A stretch of DNA of 64,000 nt from Algibacter miyuki (GTDB lineage Bacteria > Bacteroidota > Bacteroidia > Flavobacteriales > Flavobacteriaceae): NCBI RefSeq assembly GCF_030409805.1, contig NZ_JAUFQP010000013.1:124001-188000 (forward strand). The letters run 5' to 3'. The notes beneath the pieces were generated by a model. That model did no database searches, was not told the DNA's origin, and worked only from the letters and a program-made list of their open reading frames with translations. Below, in pieces: positions 17,178 through 60,021 of the stretch (the first letter of the stretch is position 1; each line of letters opens with the position of its first letter). The position numbers were made by a program, and so were the translations under genes.

Positions 17178-17294
17178 TTGGCGGATGAGTGCGTTAGGGA
17201 TTGAGGCTTTGTTGGAGCTCTTTTTGTGTTGTTGCACCTATGCAACACAAAAAAGCGACTGTCGAAAGCCCGACCCTTTTCGGGTAACGCTCAA
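17178..17294 (-). repeat. 3'-end hairpin repeat, copy A
   Basis: Intergenic repeat starting 3 bases after the stop codon of the peroxidase-like gene and in the same orientation. Read on the minus strand it opens GAGCGTTACCC, then GGGTCGGGCTTTCG, has an apical stem CTTTTTTGTGTTG / CAACACAAAAAG, and closes with CTCAATCCCTAACGC. The outer GCGTTA and TAACGC pair. It fills most of the gap between this gene and arsS. Other copies: 52918-53070, 58747-58898, 58978-59090. Confidence 0.8.
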
Positions 17295-17297
17295 ATT

Positions 17298-17633: not shown

Positions 17634-17697
17634 AGCGTTTGGTGTTCTATAGATAGAAATCTGGTTAATTTTGTCGTTTACTTTAATGTAACTTAAC

Positions 17698-17743
17698 AAA
17701 AATCGCCAAATAATATGGTTTTCCATATTATTTGGCGATTTTT
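17698..17743 (-). terminator. Long perfect hairpin terminator after acyl-CoA dehydrogenase
   Basis: A perfect 21-bp stem with a four-base TTTT loop (as read on the plus strand), flanked by A and T runs, 20 bases downstream of the acyl-CoA dehydrogenase stop at 17764. It separates that gene from the ArsS cluster. Symmetry means it could stop transcription on both strands. Confidence 0.88.
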
Positions 17744-17763
17744 TATAATTAAAGTGTGGTGTT

Positions 17764-50968: not shown

Positions 50969-51511
50969 TTAAAAATCAATATCTTCTAAATCCGATTCGT
51001 CTATTTCAAGATCCTCTTCGTTTATTTCTAATTCTGTGGCATCAATTTCTAGTATTTCACCTTCAGTCTCTATTGATTCAGGAGAAACTTCTAATTCAGT
51101 GCCTTCAATTTCTAACGATTCACCTTCTAGTTCTAGCTCTAATTCCGAAGAATCAAAATCCAGCTCTGCTTCATCAATTTCTAATTCTTCAATATCCAAA
51201 CCTTCTAGTTCTTCCATGGCTTCCTCTTCCGATTCTAGCTCTTTGGCGTCAATTATTTCTGTGTCGGCCACTTCAGTAATTGTAAACACTGCTTTATAAG
51301 TAACAATCACTAATGCAGCAATGGTTAAAAAGAACGAAAACTGAATCATCTTATTAATTTTCCCTGTTTTTTTAGACAAGTAAAAAGCGATAAAGCCAAA
51401 AATTAGTGCGGCTATAGCAGGAAAAACAGCCAAGTTAGAGAGCGGTAATACCGAAAATATAATGGCAAGAGCTGAAGCTATAACGGCAAGTATGGTGAAT
51501 ATTTTTTTCAT
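50969..51511 (-). CDS. Membrane protein with a very acidic repetitive tail
   Basis: A 180-residue protein that I cannot assign to a family. Residues 1-75 contain three hydrophobic segments (ILAVIASALAIIFSVLPL, AVFPAIAALIFGFIAFYL, FFLTIAALVIVTYKAVF). The last 95 residues are almost only Glu, Asp, Leu and Ile, with a loose repeat of the type ELEI/LEID (SLEIEGTELEV, ILEIDATELEINEEDLEI). The opposite strand is open for 87 codons, but that is a shadow of the biased codons. The tail could bind cations or a basic partner. It is 52 bases downstream of the DUF3108 gene, on the same strand. Confidence 0.75.
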   Translation of the reverse strand: MKKIFTILAVIASALAIIFSVLPLSNLAVFPAIAALIFGFIAFYLSKKTGKINKMIQFSFFLTIAALVIVTYKAVFTITEVADTEIIDAKELESEEEAMEELEGLDIEELEIDEAELDFDSSELELELEGESLEIEGTELEVSPESIETEGEILEIDATELEINEEDLEIDESDLEDIDF

Positions 51512-52508: not shown

Positions 52509-52847
52509 ATGAGAGAAGATAATCAATTTATCGTTTTAGCCCATTTAAGTCAATTAATAATCTTAGTAACCGGCTTCGGAAGTCTGTTGCTTCCACTAAT
52601 ATTGTGGATAACACAAAAAGATAAAATTCACCAAATGGACACGCACGGTAAAAATATTGTCAACTTTCAATTAAGTCTCATTGTATGGTTTGTTGTTTGC
52701 GTGCCGCTTATTTTAGTTTTCGGTTTAGGCCTTTTAGGTTTTGCCGTTTTAGGAGTGCTTTCAATTATTTTACCCGTTGTAAATGCTATAAAAGCAAATC
52801 GTGGCGAAACAGCAACCTACCCATTCACATTCCAATTTATCTCTTAA
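52509..52847 (+). CDS. DUF4870 small membrane protein
   Basis: A 112-residue membrane protein with three or four hydrophobic segments (LAHLSQLIILVTGFGSLLLP, SLIVWFVVCVPLILVFGLG, VLGVLSIILPVVNAI) and the DUF4870 signature TQKDKIHQMDTHGKNIVNFQ. Function unknown. It is followed by a terminator and then by repeat copy B in the same orientation. Confidence 0.85.
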   Translation: MREDNQFIVLAHLSQLIILVTGFGSLLLPLILWITQKDKIHQMDTHGKNIVNFQLSLIVWFVVCVPLILVFGLGLLGFAVLGVLSIILPVVNAIKANRGETATYPFTFQFIS

Positions 52848-52878
52848 TTTTATTAGTTAGTTTAATGCGAGATATGTA

Positions 52879-52908
52879 AAACGTTCACTGTTTAGTGGGC
52901 GTTTTTTT
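52879..52908 (+). terminator. Terminator after the DUF4870 gene
   Basis: Stem AAACGTTCACT / AGTGGGCGTTT (two G-T pairs), GTTT loop and T run. Confidence 0.8.
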
Positions 52909-52917
52909 ATGCGCTAA

Positions 52918-53070
52918 TTTGGGCGTTACCACAAGGGTCGGGCTTTCCGCTATATCTTTTTTTGTAATATTAACATCACTCAGTCTATAATTAAAGTAAG
53001 TTTTCCTTTTTAAAAGCTCCCGTTATCACTAAGAAGCAAAAAAGGATGCCGCATCAATCCCTAACGCGGG
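52918..53070 (+). repeat. 3'-end hairpin repeat, copy B
   Basis: Opens GGGCGTTACC, GGGTCGGGCTTTCCGCTATAT, then CTTTTTTTG, closes CAAAAAAGGATGCCGCATCAATCCCTAACGCG; the arm pairs CTTTTTTTG/CAAAAAAGG and GCGTTA/TAACGC hold. About 90 bases between the arms differ from the other copies. It lies 70 bases past the DUF4870 stop, in the convergent gap before the methyltransferase gene. The gap 52848-53151 holds nothing else beyond the terminator. Confidence 0.8.
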
Positions 53071-53151
53071 CAAGTCCGTAGTCATTTTTATATGTAAGGA
53101 GAAATTACAGCCGAGGTTTTTCAATCAAAATAATTACAAGGTGCGGAAAAA

Positions 53152-58746: not shown

Positions 58747-58898
58747 TTTTGGGCGTTCCCTAAAGGGCGGGCTTTCCGCTATATCTTTTTTTAAGGTGTA
58801 TTTTCGGTATGTTTATATGACGAAGGTTCGTGTTGCTTTTTAGTACTGTTTCTCAATCTTAAAGAAAAAAAGGATGCCGCATCAATCCCTAACGCGGG
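58747..58898 (+). repeat. 3'-end hairpin repeat, copy C
   Basis: Begins 10 bases past the permease stop. GGGCGTTCCC, GGGCGGGCTTTCCGCTATAT, then ATCTTTTTTTAAG, and closes CTTAAAGAAAAAAAGGATG, CCGCATCAATCCCTAACGCG. The arms pair as in the other copies. It faces copy D across about 80 bases; together they fill the gap 58738-59103. Confidence 0.82.
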
Positions 58899-58977
58899 TG
58901 TGTTTGCCGAGATTTGGTTTATATAATGTAAGTGCATAAAAGCAAACCTAATTTATTTTTTAAGATGGTCTTTACTT

Positions 58978-59090
58978 TGGCGGATGTGCTCGCGTTAGGG
59001 ATTGAGCGGCATGTTTGAAATCCTTTTTGTTTTCTTAAAAAAACAAAAAGATTGAGTAGCGAAAGCCCGACCTGCAAGGTAACGCCCAAA
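58978..59090 (-). repeat. 3'-end hairpin repeat, copy D
   Basis: Begins about 14 bases past the stop of the AraC regulator and has its orientation. On the minus strand: GGGCGTTACC, GTCGGGCTTTCGCTACTC, stem AATCTTTTTGTTTT / AAAACAAAAAGGATT with a short loop, then GCCGCTCAATCCCTAACGCG and an end CATCCGCCA shared with copy A. Confidence 0.82.
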
Positions 59091-59103: not shown

Positions 59104-60021
59104 TTATTTACTAATAGAGGCTTGAAATTGCTGCGGCGTTATCATTTCCATTTTTTTAAATTGACGGTTAAAATAACTGGTATTGTTAAAGCCGGATTTA
59201 AATGCAATTTCGGACATGCGGAAGCCTTTGCGTTCTTTAATGAGTTTTTTAGAGAACTTTATTTTTTCGGAATTTATGTAATCTATAGGAGAAATGCCGA
59301 GTGTGTTTTTAAATTTTTTATGAAAATGTGAGGTGCTCATACACGCTTTTTTTGCGAGCAAATCGACACTAATATCTTTATTGGTGAGGTTGTTTTTTAT
59401 AAATTTTATTGCCATCCCGATGCGGGTGTCGTTTAAAAAAGAATCGGTGTCGTTAAGGATAAACGATTTGGCTTTGGTTTGCAATAACCGAACAATGAGC
59501 TCTTGTATCATTAAATCGAGTAGCACATCTTTCGAGGTGTTGTTATTGGTAAAGGTGTAAACTAGGCGTTTTACCAAATGGTTTACATCGGTGTTATTAA
59601 TAAGGTGCGAGGCGTTTTGATCGAGTTGCCATGTGTTGTTTTCATTTTCTATGGCGACTTGGTGATTAAATTTTTCGACCACCTCGTTAATTTTATGGTC
59701 GTCAATACCTAAGGCTAAACATTGGGTTGGATTATCCATTGTGGCTAAGGGGAAGTCGATGACCATTTCTTTTCCGGTAGGCATAACAACAGATTCTCCA
59801 GGGAAAAAATCGAAAGATTCTAGCCCATCAATATGCATTACTTTTTTTCCGGTAAGCATGCTCGCAATTATAGGGAAATCGAATTTGAGCGCTACTTGTT
59901 CTGCGTAAGCGTGTGTTTCGTATATATTTAATTCGGCATAATCGGCATTATAAGTGGTTCTGTTTTCAACCAAAGTGGTGAGTTTTCTAATGCTTCTGTG
60001 GTGGTTTAGTAGTTGGCTCAT
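59104..60021 (-). CDS. AraC family transcriptional regulator
   Basis: A 305-residue regulator. The N-terminal part (about 1-190) resembles the AraC_N ligand domain (YAELNIYETHAYAEQVALKF, DFFPGESVVMPTGKEMVID). The C-terminal domain has two helix-turn-helix motifs: DISVDLLAKKACMSTSHFHK and EIAFKSGFNNTSYFNRQFKK. It is divergent from the aldehyde dehydrogenase operon, which it likely controls; relatives next to alcohol/aldehyde genes are common. Confidence 0.9.
   Translation of the reverse strand: MSQLLNHHRSIRKLTTLVENRTTYNADYAELNIYETHAYAEQVALKFDFPIIASMLTGKKVMHIDGLESFDFFPGESVVMPTGKEMVIDFPLATMDNPTQCLALGIDDHKINEVVEKFNHQVAIENENNTWQLDQNASHLINNTDVNHLVKRLVYTFTNNNTSKDVLLDLMIQELIVRLLQTKAKSFILNDTDSFLNDTRIGMAIKFIKNNLTNKDISVDLLAKKACMSTSHFHKKFKNTLGISPIDYINSEKIKFSKKLIKERKGFRMSEIAFKSGFNNTSYFNRQFKKMEMITPQQFQASISK

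Follow-up and report, generated by a model that had tools for sequence, protein, structure and literature searches.

The Flavo-1 motif (RF01705) was published in 2010 (PMC2864571) and is also mentioned in PMC9029176; the portions of the literature searched, mostly freely accessible papers, give no function for it. Among described repeats it can be likened to ERIC, an enterobacterial MITE that is dispersed, structured, ~100-200 nt long and sensitive to orientation; in Yersinia, according to the accessible part of PMC2229807, ERIC is co-transcribed with its neighbours and in an orientation-dependent manner renders the upstream message less stable. The likeness is one of form and behaviour, and Flavo-1 differs in being tied to stop codons and to gene junctions that recur across genera. 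A second parallel lies in the atypical REPs of subclass 2.6 TnpAREP (RAYT) of Bacteroidetes, which are likewise dispersed structured repeats without the GT[AG]G foot (PMC6006769, accessible part). From these, Flavo-1 differs in that no copy was seen beside 32 RAYT-like genes and no Y1 gene was found in the genome studied here. Integron attC sites share with it an imperfect palindrome, inner symmetric unpaired spacers and a sense position behind a gene, and are defined by RYYYAAC at the left end and GTTRRRY at the right; Flavo-1 ends run the opposite way round, GTTA left and TAAC right, for which reason attC was rejected. In the REP/RAYT and Bacteroidetes/Flavobacteria repeat literature, including the accessible parts of PMC6006769 and PMC12306157, we found no description of where Flavo-1 lies relative to stop codons or of an exchange of its modules, subscription papers being mostly outside the scope of that search.

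The window analysed here is a 64-kb stretch of an Algibacter genome. A preliminary description had reported four structured copies of a repeat in it, and a repeat detector indeed recovers these four and no fifth; applied to the reversed window, it finds no copy. The exact sequence TCAATCCCTAACGC occurs at four places in the window, which are the four copies, with no other mismatch-free occurrence. The copies and the features around them are given below, with gene labels (peroxidase-like, DUF4870, permease, AraC) that were assigned in the preliminary description from sequence alone.

17191-17295, minus strand: copy A, subtype II, compact arm CTTTTTTGTGTTG/CAACACAAAAAG, sense, 2 nt after a stop codon; no match to Rfam RF01705 at E ≤ 1
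17693-17748: 26-nt inverted repeat, 92% complementary, 4-nt spacing
50969-51511, minus strand: ORF whose long tail is acidic and repeated, detected in addition as direct repeat family D1
52509-52847, plus strand: ORF 5' of copy B, labelled DUF4870
52878-52909, plus strand: terminator-like hairpin and T run between this ORF and copy B, conserved in genome G151
52918-53067, plus strand: copy B, subtype I with a long loop, 70 nt after the stop of ORF 52509-52847; RF01705 match at 52932-53076, minus strand, 45.6 bits
57502-58737, plus strand: ORF 5' of copy C, labelled permease
58748-58895, plus strand: copy C, subtype I, 10 nt after the permease ORF stop; RF01705 match at 58761-58903, minus strand, 40.6 bits (below the gathering score of 42)
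58896-58915, plus strand: fading right-hand tail of copy C (own-copy consensus RGGC.TATYYGCCAA)
58992-59090, minus strand: copy D, subtype IV, 13 nt after the AraC-type ORF stop; RF01705 match at 58987-59076, plus strand, 28.6 bits (below the gathering score of 42)
59104-60021, minus strand: ORF 5' of copy D, labelled AraC type

Copies C and D face each other between genes, with right ends ~100 nt apart (58748-59090), an arrangement also seen at C3:598491-598602 of the same genome. All four copies are sense relative to the upstream gene, and the distances listed run from its stop codon to the TTT with which the element begins; the earlier claim that the element stands just 3' of a stop, in the sense of that gene, was borne out.

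Read on the sense strand, the element comprises TTT, an outer stem GCGTTA/TAACGC, an ACC..GGT hairpin in this genus, and a long arm in which GGG/CCC, a 1x1 loop, TT/AA, a 3x3 loop and two pairs lead to an exchangeable tip. We sorted the tips into five subtypes, I-V (our labels), subtype I having a U/A arm, often with a long loop. The variable ACC..GGT hairpin between the element's ends is an additional part that the preliminary description did not name; it measures 10 to 73 nt and takes 51 distinct readable forms in 103 genus copies. Outer GCGTTA/TAACGC pairing, previously proposed for all four window copies, occurs in A, B and D but is imperfect in C, which reads GCGTTC/TAACGC and forms 5 of 6 pairs. 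The inner arms of the four copies have different sequences, each pairing, and the long apical loops of B and C (72 nt left out of the Rfam alignment) place their inner arms far apart. The left border is sharp, with T in 64, 63 and 56 of 65 own-genome copies at the three positions of TTT. On the right, TAACGC, itself part of the search pattern for these copies, is followed by a purine in 65/65 and then by the fading tail. The left TTT is fixed, and column counts made without a clean empty site aligned reveal no matching right-hand TTT of the kind a target duplicate would leave. Terminal inverted repeats GCGTTA/TAACGC are present in 72 of the 103 genus copies, with other forms in the rest; the loose detector behind this set gave 4 matches in a reversed control against 103 distinct copies. 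Elements of other genera have the outer stem AGC..CCCG/CGGGGCT, and the first hairpin is absent. An extra conserved insert of ~45-50 nt (..TTTTTAAATT..TCATGAATATAAATATTTC..) was observed in the arm after GGGCTTT at L051, G151:C1:2121647-2121787, L320, L330 and L331.

The window copies are members of the Flavo-1 family (Rfam RF01705). Rfam's gathering score of 42 bits is reached by copy B only, and the other three copies are linked to it through common ends and a common arm, the arm with symmetric loops being that of the published motif (PMC2864571, accessible part), although copy A and its subtype are unmatched by the Rfam model. The comparison with Rfam suggested earlier, Flavo-1 included, thus pointed to the right family. 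The 76-position Rfam model contains neither the outer GCGTTA/TAACGC stem nor the ACC..GGT hairpin, and it models the strand opposite to the element's sense strand (copies B, C and D). With this model at E ≤ 0.001, Flavo-1 is present in at least 96 of 149 Flavobacteriaceae genomes, each a different genus, and in at least 76 of 198 genomes of the class, both being lower bounds obtained with strict filters among the matches listed.

Within the Algibacter genome, the exact sequence CAATCCCTAACGC occurs 77 times, compared with 0 for a backward-read control. Contigs C10, C11, C21 and C22 are near-duplicates of other assembly stretches; after correction for them, 65 rows were left, two of them being additional rRNA-operon occurrences of a single element, in a set that is without copies having other ends, such as one adjoining HPPD at C3:418977. 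One 86-nt element recurs in three rRNA operons, close to the left border of the leader that they share (L012 4921-5007, L044 and L060), and an identical copy with different flanks occurs at L046. The 1.43-kb identity of L012, L044 and L060 was considered as a mobile unit bounded by Flavo-1 and rejected, as it reads as the rRNA-operon leader plus the start of 16S.

The copies do favour the sense position just behind stop codons. By a gene caller of our own making, which missed the ORF before copy B and so assigned a wrong left neighbour to that locus (L003), the left neighbour was sense for 40/65 own-genome copies and antisense for 25/65. Twenty-two of the 40 start at most 20 nt after the stop, and of the 31 copies whose right neighbour shows its stop, 1 is as close as 20 nt to it and 4 are no more than 50 nt away; 14 of the 65 copies stand between convergent genes. 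We found a similar asymmetry in 43 other Flavobacteriaceae genomes, represented by one match each, namely the first non-suf match per genome among those listed, a best-scoring and not a random set whose members are not independent, nine being at the hmgA|HPPD junction. Here the left neighbour presents its stop in 35, its start in 7 and is lacking in 1, while on the right a start, hence a co-directional gene, is found in 27, a stop in 8 and no neighbour in 8. Left ends lie within 30 nt of a stop in 25 cases and right ends in 5. Antisense cases exist, 6/43 lying antisense behind a stop and lacking one on the left, but the copies are not equally oriented relative to genes. As a side observation, 41/64 copies in G151 lie in the chromosome half opposite dnaA (p 0.03, weak).

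Certain gene junctions carry the element repeatedly. Of 147 genomes with sufS, the 30 loci closest to the query (30 genera) were inspected between sufD and sufS; the element is present in 24 by eye, three of them degenerate (G110, G014 and G059), and in 16 by a strict parser, with 6 loci lacking it; the elements seen by eye split evenly, 12 each for subtypes I and II, and the start codon follows a few to ~20 nt downstream. At one near-empty site, L211 (G034), AATTATTTGAACCT separates the sufD stop from the sufS start and no element is present. In our own genome no sufD adjoins sufS. After hmgA and upstream of HPPD, an element occurs in 7/30 loci by parser and ~11 by eye. The permease stop is occupied in 5/5 species of the genus, by three subtypes; among 80 wider relatives 12 parse (reversed control 0) and more are visible by eye, the parser overlooking evident elements such as L328 and L330. 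Of 8 own elements whose left flank lies in a 400-kb stretch of G151, 7 have an element there, one of them decayed. For the other, L055, the flank is found in G151 without an element, beside a gene that may be a paralogue. Sites are gained and lost, as seen from the low number of parsing relatives at the permease stop and from one mapped own site that is empty in G151.

Pairing is maintained through sequence change. Across 49 elements of other genera, to which sufD|sufS contributes 16, Watson-Crick pairing holds in 242/245 cells of the five pairs that could be read freely, compared with a mean of 196.6 and a maximum of 209 in 1000 shuffles, which ignore relatedness among elements; the parser needs a minimum pairing score, which one deviating pair does not break. 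The columns of the 3x3 loop, by comparison, pair in 15/147 cells (shuffle mean 10.4). Arm variants at sufD|sufS are CCG/CGG (13), CAG/CTG (2) and TCG/CGA (1), and the 12 parsed elements at the permease 3' end have outer stems GCGTTA/TAACGC (4), GCGCTA/TAGCGC (3), GTGTTA/TAACAC (2), GCATTA/TAATGC (1) and one-mismatch forms (2). The proposal that the inner arms change yet still pair was thus confirmed, and covariation is present, the Watson-Crick count standing above all shuffles.

Across 16 pairs in the 103 genus copies we counted 1542 Watson-Crick pairs, 90 mismatches and 16 wobble pairs (either strand), and in the family set 2/245 cells are wobble; by strand, these divide into 11 antisense versus 5 sense and 1 versus 1, respectively. 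Wobble pairs are expected as intermediates in an RNA, and their near absence is unusual for one. Raw minimum energies had suggested a strand, with 55/63 own copies folding lower on the Rfam strand. However, with composition controlled, the Rfam strand was favoured in 41/63 own copies and 23/49 of the family set, so the raw difference shrank in the former and vanished in the latter, and strand choice by minimum energy was abandoned, as was strand choice by wobble counts. In the F. psychrophilum transcriptome, as far as the accessible part of PMC9723704 goes, Flavo-1 matches are sense or antisense to transcribed regions alike, and many lie outside them. Selection on RNA structure, as initially proposed, therefore stands as far as pairing kept through change is concerned, but as a possibility at most for the RNA level, given the opposite Rfam strand, the split strand folds and the near absence of wobble.

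Taken together, Flavo-1 is best read as a dispersed, non-autonomous structured repeat of ~85-175 nt, similar to REP and ERIC elements, and we tentatively propose, at a little short of an even chance, that it is held behind stop codons as an intercistronic or 3'-end mRNA element. On this proposal, the element would be transcribed as an intercistronic or 3' part of an mRNA, and its fold would determine how the upstream gene's message is processed, or how stable it is, relative to the message of the downstream gene, as is reported of ERIC in Yersinia. Copies would persist behind stops owing to this effect, and module differences would arise through gene conversion or short-homology recombination among copies. 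An mRNA element ranks first for us on two grounds: copies lie close to stops, in sense and ahead of co-directional genes, and ERIC offers a precedent (PMC2229807, accessible part). The Rfam match, the recurrence at particular junctions and the covariation also speak for this reading. Our confidence is limited by copy B, which lies behind a conserved terminator-like hairpin, by the split strand-fold tests and by the inconsistent strand in the accessible part of PMC9723704; the 25/65 antisense left neighbours, the scarcity of wobble pairs and the gain and loss of sites also count against it.

Modules differ at the same site within the genus. Fourteen aligned pairs of own and relative orthologous elements, with the same gene upstream, have the same subtype in 8 cases and another subtype in 6, and the element ends are identical at orthologous sites while the flanks have diverged. 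Conversely, unrelated sites of our own genome carry near-identical elements between unrelated flanks (L012/L046, 100%; L040/L070, 99%). Copy B shares its left flank with the G151 element at 2299115 and its right flank with a decayed G151 element near 2147.7 kb; the left flank of that decayed element, in turn, belongs to our own element L056. These flank matches place a rearrangement breakpoint on the element in this single case, for which homologous recombination between repeats suffices. L050 was considered as a second hybrid, its flanks matching two G152 loci, and was rejected because the right match does not adjoin the element. We also considered that Flavo-1 copies may be genome-wide docking sites, whose fixed ends stay behind the stop while the folded core, of at least five subtypes, is swapped as a cassette by folded-ssDNA recombination through an unrecognised enzyme, for which 13 bases in common on one side would be enough; we regard this as a long shot.

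A different and unlikely, though serious, alternative is that folding matters at the DNA level, as a hairpin or cruciform that an HUH (Y1/RAYT-type) enzyme or some other recombinase would recognise when copying or exchanging the element, with stop placement reflecting target or survival bias. It is kept alive by the 2/245 wobble cells, which suit both strands or DNA, and the near-identical copies at unrelated sites, the sharp TTT border, the module exchange between fixed ends and the atypical Bacteroidetes REPs of subclass 2.6 (PMC6006769, accessible part) are in keeping with it. At the level of genomes, Flavo-1 co-occurs with Y1_Tnp (47/58 versus 49/91, p 0.0008, genome size uncontrolled), but 49/96 Flavo-1 genomes are without a Y1 transposase gene, and our own assembly has no match to Y1_Tnp (PF01797) at E ≤ 0.001. 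No copy was found in 30 IS200-type and 32 RAYT-like loci elsewhere with detectors that recover at most 29/36 known loci, and an Rfam scan of 31 of the 32 RAYT-like loci likewise gave no Flavo-1. On these grounds, and despite the co-occurrence, we rejected the element as a REP of RAYT; the REP or transposon end named earlier as a possible identity thus has no REP-transposase link in the 62 loci, although Y1 and Flavo-1 do co-occur by genome. Lagging-strand targeting of the IS200/IS605 type was also rejected, as G151 shows no replication-strand bias (33/64 copies co-directional, origin assumed at dnaA).

It is doubtful that Flavo-1 is a neutral, decaying miniature element in which hairpin-templated (quasipalindrome) correction would produce the compensation, and purifying selection against insertions at other places would explain the position. 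Degenerate copies, both at sufD|sufS and in G151 near 2147.7 kb, and the patchy occupancy of the permease stop in 80 relatives fit such decay. Quasipalindrome correction, however, would close the 3x3 internal loops, which stay unpaired, and the identical ends between diverged flanks and the occupation of one junction in 24/30 genera also speak against neutrality.

A transcription terminator or insulator at gene ends would account for the many copies at 3' ends and for those between convergent genes, but we consider it improbable: elements lie inside sufD-sufS with a start codon close behind, a co-directional gene comes next in 27/43, copy B is already preceded by a terminator-like hairpin, and by our reading of the own copies the subtypes lack a common stem plus T run. 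Least supported among the roles first suggested, and very improbable, is a small RNA acting in trans from the Rfam strand. The Rfam type (Gene; sRNA) and strand and the own-genome fold preference (55/63 uncorrected, 41/63 composition-controlled) can be cited in its favour; against it stand dozens of copies tied to the upstream gene's end, the family set without strand preference (23/49) and the lack of a consistent strand in F. psychrophilum (PMC9723704, accessible part).

Flavo-1 was already known as a family; placement, covariation, junction recurrence and within-genus module differences are added here. Its function is thereby made testable at concrete places, namely stop-proximal same-strand sites, sufD|sufS, hmgA|HPPD and fixed sites with differing modules. 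By our results, the strand modelled in Rfam would be the one opposite to that of the operon. The findings also extend the Flavo-1 model, so that searches can reach further subtypes. A fold acting as DNA would point to an unrecognised recombination system; if Flavo-1 is an mRNA element, as we tentatively favour, it would represent a widespread post-transcriptional element of Flavobacteriaceae.
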